Shown here: positions 33,601 to 54,406 of the stretch, piece after piece
Layout of the letters: each line of letters begins with the position of its first letter
Position numbering within the stretch: the first letter of the stretch is position 1
NCBI RefSeq assembly: GCF_900187395.1
Contig: NZ_FYEZ01000001.1
Coordinates: forward strand, 496,001 to 560,000
Direction: 5' to 3'
DNA from: Kytococcus aerolatus
Lineage (GTDB): Bacteria; Actinomycetota; Actinomycetes; Actinomycetales; Dermatophilaceae
Length of the DNA: 64,000 nt
Position numbers and translations under genes: made by a program
Notes under the pieces: generated by a model
The model's input: only the letters and a program-made list of their open reading frames with translations
What the model was told of the DNA's origin: nothing
The model's database searches: none

Positions 33601-35633
33601 AGTTCCTCTACGAGGGCGACTCCCCCCTGGCCGAGCGGCGGGCGGCGGCCCTCGCCCTCGACCCGACGCTGCTGGCCGACCTGCTCGGACGCTCCGAGGG
33701 CACCGCCCTGCGCGACCTGCTGGACCCGGAGGCGGTGGCCACCACCCAGGCCGAGCTCCAGCACACCACACCGGACCGCCGCGCCCGGTCCGCCGAGGAC
33801 CTGGCCGACCTGCTGCGCGTCCTCGGCCCGCTGCGCCGCAGCGAGATCGCGGCCCGCAGCGTCGAGGGGGCCGATCTCGAGGCGTGGACCGCTGAGCTGG
33901 CCGCCGCCCGCCGGGCGGTGGAGCTGCCGATCGCCGGGGACCCCCGCTGGGCCGCGGTGGAGGACGTCGCCCGCCTCCGCGACGCGCTGGGCACCCCGGT
34001 GCCGCCCGGCCTCCCCCAGGCTGCCCTCGCGGCGAGCGACGACCCGCTCACCGACCTCGTCATCCGCCACGCCCGCACCCACGGCCCCTTCACCCCGGGG
34101 GCGCTCGCCGAGCGCCTCGGCCTCGGCCGGGCGGTCGTGCTCCCGGTGCTGCGGGAGCTGGTCCGCTCCGGGCGCCTGGTCGAGGGCGCCCTGCTGCCCA
34201 CCGCGCTGGGCGGCCGGGAGAGCGTCGACGGGGTGGGTCCGGACTTCTGCGACGCGGAGGTGCTGCGCCGGCTGCGGCGCCGCTCGCTGGCCGCCCTGCG
34301 CGCCGAGGTGGAGCCGGTCGACCCCGACGACTTCGCCCGCTTCGTCCCCCGCTGGCAGGGGCTCGACGCCCCGGGCCGTGGGGTCGACGCGGTGGCCCGC
34401 GCCCTGGAGCAGCTCACCGGGGCGGTGCTGCCGGCCAGCGCGGTGGAGTCCCTCGTGCTCCCGGCTCGCGTGGTCGACTACGACCCGGCCATGCTCGACG
34501 AGCTCCTCGCCAGCGGGGAGTTCCTCTGGGCCGGCCACGGCCTGCTGGCCGCGGACGATCTCTGGGTGAGCTTCCACCCGGCCGACCAGGCACCGGCCAC
34601 GCTGCCCCTGCCCCCGGTCGACGCGGCACCGTCGGGACCGGGGGCCGAGCAGGTGGCGCAACTGCTGGCCGCCGGCGGCGCCCAGCGACTCGCTGAGCTC
34701 CGGGCCGCCCAAGAGCGCGGGGGCGAAGCAGCCGAGGAGACGGCGCGGCCGGTCACCGACCCGGAGTGGACCGAGGCGGTCTGGGAGCTCGTGGGCGCCG
34801 GGCGCCTGACGAGCGACACCTTCGCCCCGGTCCGGGCCCGCCTCGCCGGGGGACGCACGACCCACCGGTCCCGACCGAGCGGCCGCCGGTCCCGGGTCTC
34901 GGGCCGCCCCACGTCCCTGCGGGGCCTCGCCCCCGCCCGCTCCGGCGGGCTGCGCAGCCAGGTCGGTGCCAGCACCCCGGCGGTGCTGACCGGGCGCTGG
35001 TCCCTGCTGCCCGAGCGGGAGACCGATCCCACGGTGCGCGCCGTCGCCGCCACCGAGGTGGCGCTGGACCGGCACGGGATCGTGACCCGCGGCGCCGTCG
35101 CCGCCGAGGAGGTGGACGGTGGGTTCGCCGCCCTGTACAAGGTGCTCGCGGCGGCCGAGGACGCCGGACGGGTGCGCCGCGGGTACTTCGTCGACACCCT
35201 CGGGGCGGCCCAGTTCGCCACCACCGGGGCGGTCGACCTCGTCCGCGGCGAGCAGTCCCGGGGCACCGACCGGCTCCTGAGCGCCTGCGACCCGGCGGTC
35301 GCCCACGGGGCCGCCCTGCCCTGGCCGGAGACCACCGGCGGTGGCCACCGCCCGGCCCGACGGGCCGGAGCGCTCGTGGCCCTGGTGGACGGCCTCCCCG
35401 CCGTGTGGTGGGAGCGAGGGGGCCGCACGGCGCTCACCTTCACCGAGGACCCCGCGCTCCTCGCCCGGGCGGCCACCGTGGCGGCCCACGCGATCCGGCA
35501 GCGGCGGGTGCCCGTGCTCTCGGTGGAGAGGATCGACGGCGAACCCGCCCTGCGCGGGGACTCACCACTCGTCCCGGCCCTGGAGGCCGCCGGCTTCGTG
35601 CCCACTCCCAAGGGGTGGAGGCTCCGTGCCTGA
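30675..35633 (+). CDS. lhr: ATP-dependent helicase Lhr (superfamily 2)
   Basis: The 1652-residue protein is of the long Lhr type. Walker A is APTGSGKT (45-52), the Walker B-like box DEVHALAGTKRG (about 169-180), motif VI QRVGRAGHQ in the second RecA domain, then a winged helix and the large Lhr-specific C-terminal region. Low-complexity inserts (about 240-290 and 362-420) lie within and before the second RecA domain. Lhr translocates 3' to 5' and unwinds RNA-DNA hybrids in DNA repair. It overlaps nei2 by 8 bases, as in mycobacteria, so repair is the likely setting. Confidence 0.96.
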   Translation: MSDDVLQRFSPPTRAWFEANFAAPTTAQAGAWDAISRGENTVVVAPTGSGKTLSAFLWSLDRFVPHGDQQPPDAPCSVIYVSPLKALAVDVERNLSAPLSGIGHAATRLGGEAPQVSVSLRSGDTPAAERRRFASRGADVLITTPESLYLLLTSRAREQLTGVTTVIVDEVHALAGTKRGAHLALSLERLDAMLERPAQRIGLSATVRPVDEVGRWLTGGRPVTIVQPPAEKAWELSVHADVPDMADLSTAPQVSPAQPDAGSVPGGAGAVASAGDSAPGAPGVPGTSDVESELSLPEHLTLADLSPEVAGADPRDRASIWPHVEHRIVEEIARHTSTLVFCNSRRSAERLTARLNEIWAERVALADTDAGSAAEADEGADGGDTDRGRAGRVTASSPRSPAEMMAQAGASAGAPAVLARAHHGSVSKEHRAEIEDALKAGTLPAVVATSSLELGIDMGAVDLVVQVESPPSVASGLQRVGRAGHQVGAVSRGSFHALHRQDLLETAVVVEQMRSGGIEALRIPANPLDVLAQQVVAACAMDDWSVGELHTMVRRAAPWSDLSRAVLESVLEMLTGRYPSEDFADLRPRLVWDRVDDLLTARPGAQRLAILSGGTIPDRGLFGVFLAGGDGPGRRVGELDEEMVYESRVGDVFTLGTSAWRIEDITHDRVLVSPAPGQPGRLPFWHGDGLGRPAELGAHLGAFVREVATAPATTVRERLEEAGLDAWSVANVTAHVRAQTEATGTVPGDRDLVVERFRDELGDWRVVLHSPWGSPVHAPWALVLAERLRERFGVDVQALHADDGIVLRIPDLGGIDAWAVPDPLPGPAGAGTPAGPGPVAVDAGSLDTALGELLAIDPEEVHDAVAALVGGSALFASRFRECAARALLLPRRRPDRRQALWQQRQRAASLLEVAAGHPDFPIVLETVREVLQDVYDVPALTELMRRLAAREVRLHVVETPQPSPFAQNLLLGYVAQFLYEGDSPLAERRAAALALDPTLLADLLGRSEGTALRDLLDPEAVATTQAELQHTTPDRRARSAEDLADLLRVLGPLRRSEIAARSVEGADLEAWTAELAAARRAVELPIAGDPRWAAVEDVARLRDALGTPVPPGLPQAALAASDDPLTDLVIRHARTHGPFTPGALAERLGLGRAVVLPVLRELVRSGRLVEGALLPTALGGRESVDGVGPDFCDAEVLRRLRRRSLAALRAEVEPVDPDDFARFVPRWQGLDAPGRGVDAVARALEQLTGAVLPASAVESLVLPARVVDYDPAMLDELLASGEFLWAGHGLLAADDLWVSFHPADQAPATLPLPPVDAAPSGPGAEQVAQLLAAGGAQRLAELRAAQERGGEAAEETARPVTDPEWTEAVWELVGAGRLTSDTFAPVRARLAGGRTTHRSRPSGRRSRVSGRPTSLRGLAPARSGGLRSQVGASTPAVLTGRWSLLPERETDPTVRAVAATEVALDRHGIVTRGAVAAEEVDGGFAALYKVLAAAEDAGRVRRGYFVDTLGAAQFATTGAVDLVRGEQSRGTDRLLSACDPAVAHGAALPWPETTGGGHRPARRAGALVALVDGLPAVWWERGGRTALTFTEDPALLARAATVAAHAIRQRRVPVLSVERIDGEPALRGDSPLVPALEAAGFVPTPKGWRLRA

Positions 35634-36456
35634 GGGGGACGTCGTCTGGCACACCGCCCGGCAGCTGCACGCCGCGCTGGCCGGGCACGAGCTGGCCCGC
35701 AGCGAGCTGCGCTGGCCGACGCTGGCCACCACCGACCTCACCGGGCGCCGGACGCTGGAGGTCGTCCCCCGTGGGAAGCACCTGCTCCACCGCCTCGAGG
35801 GCGGGCTCACCCTCCACTCCCACCTCCGCATGGAGGGCAGCTGGCGGGTCCACCCCGCAGGTCGCCCGCCCCGGCTGCCCCGCACCACCCGCGCCGTCCT
35901 GGCAACCGCCACCCGGCTGGCCGTCGGCGACACCCTGGGGATGCTGGACCTCGTCCCCACCGAGGCCGAGGAGCACCTGGTGGGCCACCTCGGACCGGAC
36001 CTGCTCGGCCCCCACTGGTCCCTGCCGGTCGCCCTGGCCAACCTCCGGCGGGACCCGGACCGTCCGATCGCGGCGGCCCTGCTCGACCAGCGCAATCTGG
36101 CGGGGATCGGCACCATCTACGCCAGCGAGCCGCTCTTCCTCCGCCGGGTCGACCCCTGGCGCCCGGTCGGCGCGGTCCCGGACGCCACCCTGGAGGCCGT
36201 CGTCGAGACCGCCCGGATGGCGCTGGCGGCGGCCTGCCGGACCCCGGGGCCGTGGGAGGGCCGCACCACGCCCCGCCACCTGCGGGAGACCCGGTGGGTG
36301 CACGGCCGGGTCCGCTCGGCCTGTCTGGTCTGCGGCACCCCGATCGCCCTCGACCCGGTCGGGGATGCGCCCCACGACCGGGTGTTCTTCCACTGCCCGA
36401 GCTGTCAGGCGTCCACCCCCGGGGCAACGCCCCGCACGAGCTCCCGAACGCAGTGA
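35626..36456 (+). CDS. nei2: Endonuclease VIII-like DNA glycosylase Nei2
   Basis: This 276-residue Fpg/Nei family enzyme starts VPEGDVVWH: Pro2 is the nucleophile and Glu3 the general acid after start removal. The helix-two-turn-helix region is DQRNLAGIGTIYASE. The zinc finger is CLVCG (about 236-239) with HCPSCQ (about 257-260). It removes oxidised pyrimidines and nicks the backbone. The GTG overlaps the end of lhr by 8 bases, so the two are probably translationally coupled. Confidence 0.95.
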   Translation: MPEGDVVWHTARQLHAALAGHELARSELRWPTLATTDLTGRRTLEVVPRGKHLLHRLEGGLTLHSHLRMEGSWRVHPAGRPPRLPRTTRAVLATATRLAVGDTLGMLDLVPTEAEEHLVGHLGPDLLGPHWSLPVALANLRRDPDRPIAAALLDQRNLAGIGTIYASEPLFLRRVDPWRPVGAVPDATLEAVVETARMALAAACRTPGPWEGRTTPRHLRETRWVHGRVRSACLVCGTPIALDPVGDAPHDRVFFHCPSCQASTPGATPRTSSRTQ

Positions 36457-36478
36457 GCCGCCCCGAGGGGCGGCTCAC
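36453..36478. terminator. Terminator between nei2 and clgR
   Basis: A 12-bp inverted repeat GTGAGCCGCCCC/GGGGCGGCTCAC overlaps the nei2 stop codon and lies before the convergent clgR stop. It may serve both genes. Confidence 0.7.
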
Positions 36479-36496
36479 CGTGAGATCGGCGGCTGG

Positions 36497-36817
36497 TCAG
36501 CCCACCGGGGCCGGTTCGCGCCGACGCACCGTCCCGGCCGGGAGCTCGGCGAGCGAGTCCGGCACCCGCATGGCCTCCTCCGCCTCGGCCACGGCCACCC
36601 GCATCGCCACGTCGGTGAGCATCTCCGACATCGGCAGGTGCAGAGCCCGGCAGATCGTCGCGAGCATCTCCGAGCTGGCTTCCTTCTCCCCCCGCTCGAC
36701 CTCGCTGAGATAGCCCAGCGAGACCGAGGCGTCGGAGGACACCTGCCGCAGGGTCCGGCCCTGGTCCAGCCGGCGCTCGCGCAGGACGTCGCCGACCTCT
36801 CGTCGCATGACCACCAT
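36497..36817 (-). CDS. clgR: ClgR-type XRE transcriptional regulator
   Basis: A 106-residue DNA-binding protein: [21 protein letters not shown] then [24 protein letters not shown] is the ClgR helix-turn-helix, with GYLSE and ERG in the usual places. ClgR activates clp protease and other proteostasis or repair genes in actinobacteria. Its C-terminal Ala-Val-Ala degradation tag, seen in some homologues, is absent here; the end is REPAPVG. Gene order ftsK-pgsA-cinA-clgR supports the call. The ATG at 36817 has GGAGGAGGG just upstream. Confidence 0.92.
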
Positions 36818-36848
36818 CTGGCCCTCCTCCTCGTCGTGATCCCCCGGC

Positions 36849-37373
36849 TCAGGCGAGCAGGTCGCCGGCCCGGGAGGGATCGTCCAAGTCTAGTTGCCGG
36901 TGCAAGTCGAGCAGCAGGGCCGTCACCGTCCCCTCCCGGACGGCCTCCCGGTCACCGTCGAGACGCAGCACCCGGTCGGTGAGCTCCCACCGGTCCTCCC
37001 GCCCCGCCCGACCGCGCCGCGCGACGGCGACGTGGACGGTGCCGGCCGGGTGCCCGTCGGCGGGTCCGGGACCGGCCACGCCCGTGGTCGCCAGTCCCCA
37101 GTCCGCACCCAGCAGCCGGGCCACTCCCCGCGCCATCTCCCGGGCCACCTCGGCATCCACCGGCCCGGTGCGCTCCAGCCGGGCGGGGTCGACGCCGAGC
37201 ACCGAGGCCTTGACCTCGGTGGCGTAGGCCACCACACCACCGCGCACCACGACCGAGGCCCCCGGCACCGCCGTCAGGGAGGCCGCCACCAGCCCTCCGG
37301 TGAGGGACTCGGCGACCGCCACGGTCTCCCCCCGGGCCGTGAGCACCGCGACGACCCGGGCGGCCGGGCTCAT
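36849..37373 (-). CDS. CinA C-terminal domain protein (nicotinamide-nucleotide amidase, PncC type)
   Basis: The 174-residue stand-alone CinA C-terminal domain has [21 protein letters not shown] (the catalytic Ser region), VVYAT-like [15 protein letters not shown], and [23 protein letters not shown]. Family members deamidate NMN to nicotinate mononucleotide. The N-terminal COG1058 domain is missing, as in many actinobacteria. Its ATG overlaps the pgsA stop by 4 bases. Confidence 0.92.
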
Positions 37374-38002
37374 CGCTGCGGGGCGGGGCGCTCGCGGCGC
37401 CCGCGGGTCCACAGCCGCCAGGCGTCCACGAGGTAGTCCAGGCCGGTCACGACCGTGACGACCATCGCGGCGATCATGATCCAGAAGCCGACCATGACGA
37501 CCGGCTCGACGGGCATGAGCATGAAGGCCACCGCCACCGACTGCAGGACCGTCTTGAGCTTCCCGCCCCGGCTGGCGGCCATCACGCCGTAGCGGATGAC
37601 CACGAAGCGCACCAGGGTGATGAGCAGCTCCCGGGCGAGGATGACGACGGTGACCCACCAGGGCAGCAGGCCGACGAGGCTCAGGCAGACCAGGGCCGAC
37701 CCGATGAGGGCCTTGTCGGCGATCGGGTCGGCGATCTTGCCGAAGTTGGTGACGAGATTCCGGCTCCGGGCGAGGTCGCCGTCGATCCGGTCGGTGATGG
37801 CCGCCAGGGCGAAGACGGCGAAGGACCACCAGGCGGCCAGGTGCTGACCGTCCGGGGCGGGATCGTGCAGGAGCAGCCAGACGAACACCGGGACCATGAG
37901 GATCCGCAGCACGGTCAGGCCGTTGGCGATGTTCCAGGCGCTCGCCTCGGGATTCACCTCCGTGGCCCCGGTCCGGCGCGGGGCGCTCGACGGGTGGCTC
38001 AT
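37370..38002 (-). CDS. pgsA: CDP-diacylglycerol-glycerol-3-phosphate 3-phosphatidyltransferase
   Basis: The 210-residue integral membrane enzyme carries the CDP-alcohol phosphatidyltransferase signature DGDLAR-x8-G-x3-D-x3-D ([20 protein letters not shown] then IADK), near residues 74-98. It makes phosphatidylglycerophosphate, the precursor of phosphatidylglycerol and cardiolipin. It overlaps rimO upstream and cinA downstream by 4 bases each, so this is a tight operon. Confidence 0.94.
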
Positions 38003-39588
38003 GCGAGCTCCCCCCGGGCCACGAGGTCGACCCCTTCGGAGCCGACCACCGTGGCGGCCACGATCTCCCCCACCCGCAGGTCGGGGGCCGAGCCGTCGGT
38101 GCGCTGCAGGATGGTCACGCCATCGACCTCCGGACCCTGGTGCTCGGCGCGACCGATGACCTGCCGGGCGCTCTCCCCGGTCGGCTCCCCGGTGTCCTCG
38201 TCGAGGAGCTCGAGCTCCTCGATCTCCTCCACGAGCACGCTGACCGACTCCCCGACACGGTCGGCCGCCCGCTGGGCCATGACCTCCTCGGCGAGATCGC
38301 GGATCCGGGCGACCCGGGCGTCGACGACCTCCTGCGGCAGCTTGTCACCGAGCCGCTCGGCCTCGGTGCCGTCCTCGTCGGAGTAGCCGAAGACCCCGAG
38401 CACGTCGAGCTGGGCGCGCTCCACGAAGTCGGCCAGCAGGTCGACCTCTTCCTCGGTCTCCCCCGGGAAGCCGCAGATGACGTTGGAGCGGATGCCGGCG
38501 GTGGGCGCGGCCGCACGCACCTGCTCGATGAGTCCGAGGAAGGACTCGGCGTCCCCGAAGCGACGCATCCGGCGCAGCAACGGACCGGAGGCGTGCTGGA
38601 AGGAGAGGTCGAAGTAGGGCACCACCCCGGGGGTGCTCGTCATGACTGTGAGCAGCTCGGGACGCGTCTCCGCCGGCTGGAGATAGCTCACGCGCACCCG
38701 CTCGATGCCCCCGATCGCGGTGAGCTCGGGCAGCAGCGCGTCGAGCAGCCGCAGGTCGCCGAGGTCCTTGCCGTAGGAGGTGGTGTTCTCGCTCACCAGG
38801 AAGAGCTCGCGGACCCCGTTCTCGGCCAGCCAGCGCGCCTCGGCGAGCACGTCGGTGGGGCGGCGGGAGATGTGGGCCCCCCGGAAGGACGGGATGGCGC
38901 AGAAGGCGCAGCGCCGGTCACAGCCCGAGGCGATCTTCAGCGGCGCCCACGGGCGGTCGTCGAGCCGGCGGCGGATCACCGACGAGGGCCCCGAGGCGGG
39001 CGCCGGCCCGTCCAGGCTCGCGTCACCCGGCTCGACCGGCGTGATCGCGGCCAACCCGGCCGCGGCGGCCTCCTCCGGGGAGACGTCGCCGTGCCCGGGC
39101 AGAGCCACCCCCGCCGCCCCGGCCTGCCGGTCCACCGGGGACAGCGGCAGCAGCCGGCGCCGGTCCCCCGGGGTGTGCGCGGCCGGGGCGTTCCCGTCGA
39201 GCACCGCCCGCAGGGAGGCCGACATGTCGGCATAGGAGTCGAAGCCCAGCACCGCGTCCGCCTCCGGCAGCTCCGCGGCCAGCTCCGAGCCGTAGCGCTC
39301 GGCCATGCACCCGACGGCCACGACCGCCCCGGTGCGCCCGTCGGACTTCAGGTCGTGCGCCTCCAGCAGCGCGTCGATGGAGTCCTTCTTGGCCGACTCC
39401 ACGAAGCCGCAGGTGTTCACCACGGTGACATCGGCGCCGTCCGCCTCCTCCGCGAGCTCCCAGCCGGCCGCGGCCAGCCGCCCGGCCAGCTCCTCGGAGT
39501 CCACCGCGTTGCGGGTGCAGCCCAGGGTCGCGATGTGGACGCTGGGCCGCTCGGTCTCGGGGAGGGCGTCGGTGGAGGGAGAGCTCAT
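37999..39588 (-). CDS. rimO: Ribosomal protein S12 methylthiotransferase RimO
   Basis: The 529-residue methylthiotransferase has N-terminal Cys motifs ([35 protein letters not shown]) and radical-SAM [11 protein letters not shown] (about 219-229). SRRPTDVL and the C-terminal TRAM domain follow. The TRN and GFVE forms separate RimO from MiaB. It adds a methylthio group to Asp88 of S12. About 70 extra residues (about 130-200), Ala/Gly/Pro-rich, lie between the first domain and the radical-SAM core, longer than in E. coli. TAGACT lies 6 bases before the ATG, suggesting a leaderless start. Confidence 0.95.
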
Positions 39589-49647: not shown

Positions 49648-50262
49648 ATGGTCAACCTCACCCGCATCTACACCCGCACCGGCGACGACGGCACGACCGG
49701 GCTGGGCGACTTCGGCCGCACCCGCAAGGACGACCCACGGCTGATCGCCTACGCCGACTCCGACGAGGCCAACGCCGCCCTCGGTGTCGCGATGCTGCAC
49801 GCCGACGACCGGGCGGACATCGCCGCGGTGGTCCGTCGGGTGCAGAACGAGCTCTTCGACGTCGGGGCGGACCTCTCGCTCCCTCTGCGCGCCAGCTACG
49901 AGTACGAGCCGCTGCGCGTCACGCAGGAGTGGATCGACGACCTCGAGGCCGACTGCGACCGCTTCAACGAGGAGCTCACGCGGCTCACCAGCTTCATCCT
50001 CCCCGGGGGTGGCCCGCTCTCGGCGCACCTGCACGTGGCACGCACGGTGGTCCGTCGCGCGGAGCGCGCGGCCTGGACGGCTGTCGAGGTGCACGGCAGC
50101 GACCCTGCGGCGGAGGACGCCCCCAAGGGCACCGGTGGCGTCTCCCCGCTGCCGGCGAAGTACCTCAACCGGCTCTCGGACCTGCTCTTCATCCTCGCGC
50201 GCAGTGCCGCGGGGGCCGAGGGTGACGTCCTGTGGCAGCCCGGTGGGGGCCGCCAGGCCTGA
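49648..50262 (+). CDS. pduO: Cob(I)alamin adenosyltransferase, PduO type
   Basis: The 204-residue protein has the ATP-binding start TRTGDDGTTGLGDFGR (about 9-24) and a C-terminal PAKYLNRLSDLLFILAR, both PduO/MMAB signatures. It transfers the adenosyl group from ATP to cob(I)alamin. It has no cobinamide-biosynthesis neighbours here, but the B12 import system at 2.9-11.3 kb would supply its substrate. Position beside the ATP synthase end and nucS is conserved. The ATG at 49648 follows a GGGGTGG. Confidence 0.95.
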   Translation: MVNLTRIYTRTGDDGTTGLGDFGRTRKDDPRLIAYADSDEANAALGVAMLHADDRADIAAVVRRVQNELFDVGADLSLPLRASYEYEPLRVTQEWIDDLEADCDRFNEELTRLTSFILPGGGPLSAHLHVARTVVRRAERAAWTAVEVHGSDPAAEDAPKGTGGVSPLPAKYLNRLSDLLFILARSAAGAEGDVLWQPGGGRQA

Positions 50263-50281
50263 GGCCACCGTCCGCTGACGC

Positions 50282-50312
50282 AGGAGGGGCCCGCCGGTGG
50301 CGGGCCCCTCCT
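50282..50312. terminator. Bidirectional terminator between pduO and DUF2550
   Basis: A 14-bp stem AGGAGGGGCCCGCC/GGCGGGCCCCTCCT flanks a short loop between convergent genes. Confidence 0.85.
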
Positions 50313-50320
50313 GCGTACCG

Positions 50321-50755
50321 TCAGAGCGAGAACCGGACGGCGTGCCCCGGGGGCAGCGTCTCCTGCCAGGCCCGCAGGGCCCGGCCGTCCCCGGGGGTCA
50401 GCGCGAGATCGACGCTGGTGCTCTCCCCGCCGAGCACGGTGCCCCGGGCGCGCACCCAGCGGCTCCCGGGCGTCGGCCCGGTCTCCTCCAGGAGCTCCAG
50501 CTCGATGCTGGTCCGTTCCACGGCCAGCTGCGGCCGGGTGCTGAGTCCCCACAGGGGGTGCAGGGCCAGGGCCCGCGGTCCGAGGCGGACGAGGACGGTC
50601 CCGGACTCGTCACCCCGCCGGAACACCCCGACGACGGTCGAGTACCCCCCGGCGATGCGCCACCGACGCCAGCCGCTGAAGCCGATCCAGAGGAGCGTCA
50701 GGAGGAGGGCGAGAGCGAGGACGATCTCGACGAGCGTGAGTGCGTCCTGCGCCAC
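50321..50755 (-). CDS. DUF2550 membrane protein
   Basis: The 144-residue protein has one N-terminal membrane helix (VEIVLALALLLTLLWIGFSGW) and a soluble beta-rich domain with GGYSTVVGVFRRGDE, typical of DUF2550. It always follows atpC in actinobacteria, including mycobacteria; function unknown. It lies 5 bases after atpC and is probably transcribed with it. Confidence 0.88.
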   Translation of the reverse strand: MAQDALTLVEIVLALALLLTLLWIGFSGWRRWRIAGGYSTVVGVFRRGDESGTVLVRLGPRALALHPLWGLSTRPQLAVERTSIELELLEETGPTPGSRWVRARGTVLGGESTSVDLALTPGDGRALRAWQETLPPGHAVRFSL

Positions 50756-50760
50756 CGCGG

Positions 50761-51036
50761 TCAGGCCGGCAGGGTGCTGGCGTCGACCTGCTCGGCCACG
50801 ATGGTGACACGGTCGGAGTCCACGGAGAGGAAGCCGGTGTTGATCTGGACCTCCTGCTTGCCACCGGCGGTGTGGATGCCGACGGTGCCCTCGGTCAGCG
50901 CGCCGAGCAGCGGGGTGTGGCCCGGCATGATGCCCAGCTCACCATCGGTGGTGCGGGCGGTCACCATGGAGGCCTCACCGCTCCACACCTGGCGGTCCGC
51001 GGCAACGAGGTCGACGGTCAACTGGCTCACCGGCAT
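50761..51036 (-). CDS. atpC: ATP synthase epsilon subunit
   Basis: The 91-residue protein has the epsilon N-terminal beta-sandwich (LTVDLVAADRQVWSGEA, GELGIMPGHTPLL) and nothing after it: the C-terminal helical hairpin present in many bacteria is absent, so it cannot form the classical inhibitory up-conformation. It is separated from atpD by 944 bases carrying an opposite-strand gene, so it needs its own promoter; TAGGAT (51108-51103, minus strand) is a candidate. Confidence 0.95.
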   Translation of the reverse strand: MPVSQLTVDLVAADRQVWSGEASMVTARTTDGELGIMPGHTPLLGALTEGTVGIHTAGGKQEVQINTGFLSVDSDRVTIVAEQVDASTLPA

Positions 51037-51176
51037 CTCCTAGGGGTCTGCAGGGTCTGGGCCTGCGTCGTCTGGGGCACCGGCCACGCGACCGGTGGGG
51101 TCATCCTACGCGTCCCGGCGCCCCTCCCCGACAGGTGGCAACACCCACCCGTGGCGGCGGTGGGAGGATGCGCAGC

Positions 51177-51884
51177 ATGTCTGCTGCGACCGAGAGCACC
51201 CGCCCGACGAACCCCGACTTCATCGAGGTCTACCCCGACGCCCTGAGCCCGGAGCTCTGCGACCAGATCATGGCCGCCTTCGAGGCCAGCCCGCACCAGC
51301 GCCCGGGCGCCACCGGCGGCGGCGTGAACAAGGAGATGAAGGACTCGGTGGACATCCACATCACCGGGCGCCCCGAGTGGCAGGCCCTCGAGGCGCAGCT
51401 CGTCCAGGCTGCGAGCCGCTGCCTCGTGCAGTACGTGCGCACCTATCCCCACACCCTCATCGCCCCGCTCGTCTTCCAGCACCAGGCGCCGGACGGGACC
51501 GTGACCCGCATCGACGAGGACCGGATCGCCCAGATGTCGGACCAGGAGATCATCGACCTGGCCGGCGCGGCGCTGCGCCCCGGGGGCATCAACATCCAGC
51601 GCTACACGGCCGACTCCGGCGGGTACCCCTACTGGCACTGCGAGACCATGCCGAAGGACTCCTCGCACGAGAGCCTGCACCGGCACTGCCTGTGGACCGC
51701 CTATCTCAACGACGAGTTCGAGGAGGGAGCCACCGAGTTCCTCTACCAGGACCGCAAGGTGGAGCCGAAGAAGGGCGCCCTGGTCATCGCCCCGGGTGCC
51801 TTCACCCACACCCACCGTGGGAACCGCCCGGTCGGTGGCGACAAGTACATCGCCACCTCCTGGTTCCTCTTCCACCGCCGCTGA
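51177..51884 (+). CDS. 2OG-Fe(II) oxygenase-like protein, within the ATP synthase cluster
   Basis: The 235-residue protein has the double-stranded-beta-helix fold pattern of prolyl-4-hydroxylase-like oxygenases: GINIQRYTADSGGYPYWHCE (about 142-161), then HRHCLWTAYLND, EGATEF and a distal GAFTHTHRGNRP with GDKYIATSWF. Iron ligands would be WHCE (H-x-E rather than H-x-D) and the late His, with Lys or Arg holding 2-oxoglutarate. Substrate unknown. It points against the surrounding atp genes and splits atpD from atpC. The ATG at 51177 has GGAGG 9 bases upstream. Confidence 0.8.
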   Translation: MSAATESTRPTNPDFIEVYPDALSPELCDQIMAAFEASPHQRPGATGGGVNKEMKDSVDIHITGRPEWQALEAQLVQAASRCLVQYVRTYPHTLIAPLVFQHQAPDGTVTRIDEDRIAQMSDQEIIDLAGAALRPGGINIQRYTADSGGYPYWHCETMPKDSSHESLHRHCLWTAYLNDEFEEGATEFLYQDRKVEPKKGALVIAPGAFTHTHRGNRPVGGDKYIATSWFLFHRR

Positions 51885-51925
51885 GCCCAGCGCCCCATCC
51901 CCACGCTGACGGGGCCGGCCGGCAC

Positions 51926-51967
51926 GCGAGAGGCCCCGTCGACCAGCTGGTCGACGGGGCCTCTCGC
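51926..51967. terminator. Strong bidirectional terminator between the oxygenase and atpD
   Basis: A perfect 20-bp stem (51926-51945 with 51948-51967) and minimal loop lies between the convergent oxygenase and atpD stops. It should stop most transcription from atpD before atpC. It is the longest perfect hairpin in the window. Confidence 0.9.
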
Positions 51968-51980
51968 GGGTGCTGTGGGG

Positions 51981-54406
<2,426 letters not shown>

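Follow-up and report, generated by a model that had tools for sequence, protein, structure and literature searches.

Splits of the F1Fo ATP synthase locus between the beta and epsilon subunit genes have been described in Aquificae and Beggiatoa by Koumandou and Kossida (2014; PMC4154653), whose available sections give the actinobacterial locus as not split. Similar to those loci, the one studied here has its epsilon gene (atpC) apart from its beta gene (atpD). However, the loci described in these sections are split at several junctions, whereas here atpD-atpC stands alone among the junctions examined, both genes retain their strand and order, and the cargo in the gap varies. According to the available sections of Niu et al. 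(2017; PMC5709465), 78.6% of actinobacterial ATP synthase units are standard, gene order is held by selection and subunit stoichiometry matters; splitting of complete units by rearrangement is thought unlikely, and interruption should harm. The incomplete transcription units reported there resemble our locus in that ATP synthase genes would belong to more than one transcription unit, but the combinations named in these sections keep epsilon with beta, whereas here epsilon is detached. Horizontal-transfer hotspots between core genes, many of them without mobile elements, were found in 80 species by Oliveira et al. (2017; PMC5635113, available sections). The atpD-atpC gap shares with them its core flanks, a high turnover of cargo and the lack of a recognised mobility gene; in contrast to hotspots collected from 80 species, this site recurs across the genera of one family, within an operon whose genes are usually contiguous. 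No report of the family's atpD-atpC split was found in the open-access library searched, which by itself does not establish that it is unreported.

With an epsilon gene as far as 23.5 kb from atpD and unrelated genes in between, the family makes the harm argument of PMC5709465 testable, and related genera with a closed gap offer natural controls. The locus also suggests an order for the break-up of an operon, in which transcription signals come first and insertions later.

The atpD-atpC junction in the window

The window, i.e., the whole 64,000-nucleotide stretch of DNA that was analysed, sits within a 1.48-Mb contig. Its atpD is the final gene of the main atp operon, and the DUF2550 gene begins 5 bases downstream of atpC (Table 1). 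The original prediction described a spacing of 944 bases between atpD and atpC, an opposite-strand gene for a 2OG-Fe(II) oxygenase and a perfect hairpin with a 20-bp stem after atpD. The sequence and its open reading frames confirm the spacing, with atpD and atpC both on the - strand. The oxygenase matches Pfam 2OG-FeII_Oxy_3 with an E value of 3e-8 and 34.9 bits, above the curated cut-off of 27. The hairpin is likewise there, as a palindrome whose 22-nt arms are 100% complementary and which forms a 20-pair stem if AGCT is taken as the loop. When the atpD strand was folded, z was -6.5, equalled in 0/200 dinucleotide shuffles; the palindrome has no T run or T tail. Since the palindrome lies 12 nt past the atpD stop and 40 nt past the oxygenase stop, it could terminate both of these convergent genes, and this is its probable role.

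Upstream of atpC, the TAGGAT that the original prediction had proposed as a promoter element is present on the - strand. It is the sole TANNNT, on either strand, within the 140 bases that separate atpC from the oxygenase ATG. A consensus scan of positions 50200-52100 found neither a promoter nor a terminator; because such a scan requires two hexamers and a T run, comparative tests were used in its place.

Table 1. Features at and around the atpD-atpC junction of the window
Feature	Position	Strand	Basis	Remark
atpD, F1 beta subunit	51981..53444	-	TIGR01039, 769.5 bits; ORF	Stop at 51981; start not fixed, open frame extends to 53483
Palindrome	51925..51968	.	Inverted-repeat search	Arms 51925-51946 / 51947-51968
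2OG-Fe(II) oxygenase	51177..51884	+	PF13640 (2OG-FeII_Oxy_3)	ATG at 51177, stop at 51884; ORF list starts at GTG 51135
TAGGAT, putative -10-like element of the atpC-DUF2550 unit	51103..51108	-	Comparison	
atpC, F1 epsilon subunit, 91 aa	50761..51036	-	PF02823, NF009977	Match limited to the N-terminal beta-sandwich domain
DUF2550 protein	50321..50755	-	PF10739, 28.6 bits (cut-off 27)	

Gap size and transcription signals among related genomes

Comparison of the spacing in relatives showed that the wide split is real, as the original prediction had it, but also that it is family-wide, with the oxygenase as one cargo of many. Of 186 genomes from the family, which we take to be Dermatophilaceae, 167 could be scored (eight have the two genes on different contigs, and among the matches listed five have one gene and six have neither). 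The gap measured at least 300 bp in 109 of the 167, spread over 37 of 50 genera, and reached 23,508 bp. By size class, it was <100 bp in 22 genomes, 100-299 bp in 36, 300-999 bp in 14, 1-5 kb in 68, 5-10 kb in 9 and >10 kb in 18. A survey of the order, in which 142 of 159 genomes were scored among the matches listed, included 130 genomes outside the family; their median gap was 20 bp, and only two, both of family f5, had one of at least 300 bp. In genomes chosen for the purpose, with five loci per junction from outside the family, no gap of at least 300 bp occurred at atpF-atpH (0/77), atpH-atpA (0/77), atpA-atpG (0/78) or atpG-atpD (0/78). The atpD-atpC insertion site is exceptional against these four other atp junctions only. 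A subunit gene is separated here from its operon neighbour by unrelated genes, i.e., the operon is split. The 19 scored genomes of genera g13, g15, g21 and g46 all have gaps between -1 and 8 bp.

A TANNNT hexamer was found within 115 nt upstream of atpC in all 104 genomes read whose gap was 90 bp or longer (100 from the family and 4 from outside). Mononucleotide shuffles gave 35.7/104; since about a third of shuffles contain the motif in 115 nt by chance, single cases weigh little. The motif lay 35-70 nt upstream of atpC codon 5 in 98/104 genomes, and 95 of 112 occurrences were 40-59 nt upstream of that codon. When one genome per genus was taken, TANNNT preceded atpC in all 31 genera read whose gap spans 90 bp or more and was at 35-70 nt in 29 of them, against a mean of 2.9 and a maximum of 8/31 in shuffles. 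As controls, the motif was seen upstream of atpG in 2/78, of atpA in 0/76 and of atpH in 0/69 cases, and in none of four genomes with gaps <60 bp (three from the family and one from f53). TAGACT is a common form ahead of atpC, and the sequence around the motif varies between genera. The window's TAGGAT, 66 nt ahead of atpC, is outside the usual position: it is 84 nt from codon 5, compared to 48 nt in the sister species (G082), or about 36 nt farther. It nevertheless aligns with the sister's TAGTAT, and the flanking CGCGTAG and GACCCCACC are common to both. The recurrence of TANNNT, together with this alignment, supports the earlier proposal that the atpC-DUF2550 unit has its own promoter, which it very probably does.

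At the other end of the gap, a hairpin after atpD (score >=11) was present in 87 of 122 genomes, 4 of the 122 being from outside the family, compared to 3/610 mononucleotide shuffles. These hairpins are without T tails. As 35/122 genomes fell under the cut-off, including the sister species (score 9) and both long-gap genomes of f5 (5 each), a terminator is not established for every opened gap. Both ends were read in 86 long-gap genomes, of which 58 had a hairpin and a well-placed TANNNT, 23 the well-placed TANNNT only, 4 a hairpin with TANNNT elsewhere and 1 only a TANNNT elsewhere. Beyond atpC, a same-strand open frame of at least 45 aa begins within 80 nt in 79/79 loci, a weak count, as frames of this kind often turn up in GC-rich DNA and those counted were not identified. 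Judging from the recurrent hairpin, transcription of the main atp unit probably ends past atpD; we infer that the hairpin stops it and that the TANNNT starts it again.

The history of the junction was read from a tree of AtpA, AtpG, AtpD and AtpH from 78 genomes, chosen so that genera, gap classes and types of cargo were all represented. The tree is based on one operon and a short search, with one truncated row (3.6 changes per column) left out. Long and short gaps require at least 11 changes on it, 9 of them forced by starred branches; the labels are strongly clustered (11 changes vs 17.9 in shuffles), so many genomes share one event. The family is itself a starred group, and its neighbour in the tree is another, made up of f54, f3 and f5. 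The near families f54 (7/7) and f3 (1/1) already have TANNNT in gaps that measure 99-229 bp and are free of cargo, which suggests that atpC first became its own transcription unit and that insertions came later. Where gaps exceeded 55 bp, TANNNT was found in f53 in 1/3, in f8 in 1/8 and in f9 in 0/3 genomes, and 4/8 genomes of f8 had a hairpin score of at least 10 but no TANNNT; 20 order loci chosen for gaps >55 bp were counted separately. For the 59 of 78 rows in which presence or absence of TANNNT could be scored, 3 changes are needed on the tree. Change counts alone do not tell gain from loss, and the simplest course would be a single gain of TANNNT before the family, then insertions and losses, with closure of the gap and loss of TANNNT in g15, g46 and g13 (in g13 as judged from its 8-bp gap alone). 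We infer both this order of events and the mode of cargo movement.

The gaps and their taxonomic spread, the diversity of their cargo and the recurring hairpin and TANNNT are all direct observations. Based on them, we are confident, though short of certain, that the atp operon here consists of two transcription units and that the gap between them is a recurrent insertion site for unrelated genes. The main unit would end at the hairpin just past atpD, and a separate -10 promoter, some tens of bases ahead of atpC, would drive that gene and, in the window, the DUF2550 gene with it. This promoter most likely arose before the family. The epsilon gene would be freed from read-through, and DNA between hairpin and promoter could then be gained, lost and exchanged without harm to ATP synthase. 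Because epsilon would no longer depend on read-through, the junction would be open to unrelated genes in either orientation. The window's genus has the 2OG-Fe(II) oxygenase as its cargo, a gene of probable origin outside the family.

Some further observations concern the shortest gaps. Genomes G034, G046 and G153 (L212, L213 and L259) also have gaps within -1 to 8 bp, and the DNA of three genomes with such very short gaps has no TANNNT ahead of atpC. In the tree, g13, g15 and g46 nest within the long-gap family, which may reflect re-fusion of a split operon. On contig 20 of G095 (34769-39222), two atpC matches of the same score and identity stand in opposite orientation about 4 kb apart, a duplication or an assembly artefact. 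In genus g60 of f6, six genomes (G582, G594, G639, G650, G661 and G682) have one TAA within the atpD alignment, which may be an end-of-gene alignment effect.

Cargo of the gap and its turnover

Cargo open reading frames were collected from 79 loci with a long gap, another 16 loci of the family and two of f5; reading was limited to the first 12 kb of those inserts in which it did not extend to atpC. The frames were called by our own codon-usage score, with which short genes can be missed or invented, and single-linkage clustering placed them in 67 clusters, one of which occurs only in f5. A Pfam scan of one representative per cluster assigned the cargo to a permease, an acetyl-CoA hydrolase/transferase, an asparagine synthase, a GH76 protein, a Dyp peroxidase, an E1-type dehydrogenase, an ABC transporter and a DUF222-HNH gene. 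Others come in sets: a DUF2752 gene next to one for a TM2 protein, MurT next to a GATase_3 protein, a molybdopterin oxidoreductase with FeS and NrfD-type proteins, and an NDH-2-like oxidoreductase (Pyr_redox_2, with an NDH2_C match under its cut-off) next to DUF6918. Gaps of 11-23.5 kb carry glycosyltransferases and other polysaccharide genes, and 11 of the 67 representatives were without any Pfam match. Among 288 cargo frames of the family, 159 run along the operon and 129 are opposed to it. In related genomes, the two core genes thus enclose different and unrelated cargo, which is one mark of a transfer hotspot.

Integration by a mobile element was considered and is unsupported. None of the 67 representatives matched an integrase or transposase family, and no tRNA gene was present in any of the 60 gap loci scanned, out of 95 read; the scanned inserts thus have none of these three marks of a mobile-element site in or beside them. 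Nearest to mobility genes were the DUF222-HNH gene and a NikA-like match under its cut-off.

Three broader readings can be weighed; two of them, ordinary turnover and selection for epsilon dosage, are not exclusive of the explanation by two transcription units or of each other, and our estimates are not meant to add up to certainty. The first is that gene order simply turns over in the ordinary way and that, once the operon had split, the boundary was nothing special. The missing integrases, transposases (67 representatives) and tRNA genes (60/60 loci) agree with this. However, atpC remains downstream of atpD on the same strand in 167/167 family genomes with both genes on one contig, even over 23.5 kb; in the eight genomes with the genes on different contigs, strand and order are not judgeable. 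Free shuffling would also be expected to scatter or invert atpC, which counts against ordinary turnover, and we regard it as a plausible contributor that falls short of an even chance.

Slightly more doubtful is a reading of the gap as a family-wide docking site. The flanking atpD and atpC genes, both conserved and essential, would offer homology for recombination, by which whole modules of cargo could be swapped among species without a mobile element and be placed safely between two transcription signals.

Two cargo families deserve mention in their own right. The NDH-2-like oxidoreductase is in the gap of 16 genomes from seven genera (L125, L127-L131, L157 and L185-L193), 15 of which have the DUF6918 gene on the opposite strand; a respiratory enzyme adjoining ATP synthase may be a functional pairing. 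A family of proteins of about 140-240 aa, whose representative has no Pfam match, is in the gap of f5 and of five family genera (L198, L267, L268 and the loci of g34, g36, g42 and g53). It needs 6 changes on the tree and may be the oldest cargo or the result of several entries.

Epsilon subunit, sister locus and origin of the oxygenase

The C-terminal domain of epsilon inhibits ATP hydrolysis in other bacteria. Across 124/124 loci, in which some genomes are counted twice and outgroup families are included, epsilon is 88-98 aa long, about the N-terminal domain alone, and it is apparently too short for an inhibitory C-terminal domain. Since the short epsilon also occurs outside the split genomes, it is unlikely that the split controls such a domain. 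These lengths bear on the possibility, raised by the original prediction, that the split was selected so that the amount or timing of epsilon differs from the rest of F1, a view that is compatible with two transcription units and for which the TANNNT ahead of atpC in 31/31 genera speaks. Apart from the length of epsilon, two observations oppose it: the surroundings of TANNNT differ among genera, and the closed gap of g13, g15, g21 and g46 (19/19 genomes) indicates that the family can do without the split. We therefore think that selection on epsilon dosage is unlikely.

The genome of the sister species is one contig of 2,785,024 bases, in which atpD is followed by the oxygenase gene on the opposite strand, a gene for a 441-aa permease on the operon strand and atpC, with a gap of 2,381 bp. 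Both genomes of the window's genus thus share the oxygenase and its place in the gap. By its cluster representative, the permease belongs to Xan_ur_permease, i.e., it is of the xanthine/uracil type, and its cluster is in the gap of 25 genomes from nine genera, including g41, whose branch in the tree joins that of the window's genus. The sister's permease gave no match in the window's genome, in a search made with no positive control. The window's species may have lost it from the gap; the pattern of permease presence needs 8 changes on the tree, so repeated gain is as possible as loss.

The original prediction had also raised the idea that the oxygenase is tied to the energy state of the cell through divergent control with atpC. 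In the window, the two genes are indeed divergent and 140 bp apart, and the oxygenase is kept in the gap in both genomes of the genus. In the sister species, however, the permease gene stands between them. The oxygenase was matched in 2/186 family genomes, both in the window's genus, with no match in the other 184, and elsewhere the gap holds many unrelated genes. In addition, the strand that encodes the oxygenase has no TANNNT in the 140 bp that separate the two genes. On the strength of the sister locus and the family search, we reject a regulatory pair of oxygenase and atpC as highly improbable.

An assembly error in the window's genome, which the original prediction had named as a refutation, found no supporting point among the assemblies and is rejected as next to inconceivable, because the same oxygenase is in the same gap of the sister's one-contig genome and the window's own contig spans 1.48 Mb.

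As for the oxygenase itself, residues H154, E156, H211, H213 and K223 are conserved in at least 97% of 82 aligned rows; the His/acid/His ligands of iron, and a contact to 2-oxoglutarate, may be among them. Its matches in the PDB are prolyl 4-hydroxylases and procollagen lysyl hydroxylases with E values of about 0.04, too weak to count alone, and hint faintly at a prolyl-4-hydroxylase-like enzyme. A draw of 394 genomes of the class gave a full-length match only in the window's own genome, besides two short weak ones. Within a named genome collection, whose search may omit records of the window's own or very near genomes, 453 stretches encode relatives; the best 80 of the 453 have 53-60% identity and comprise 73 from Lysobacterales, 6 from Burkholderiales and 1 not placed. 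A tree of the 82 rows joins the two members of the genus with full support; by path length, Arenimonas sequences come next. The simplest reading of this distribution is that the oxygenase was acquired from outside the family, as it probably was. The oxygenase is genus-restricted cargo, one among many in the gap.
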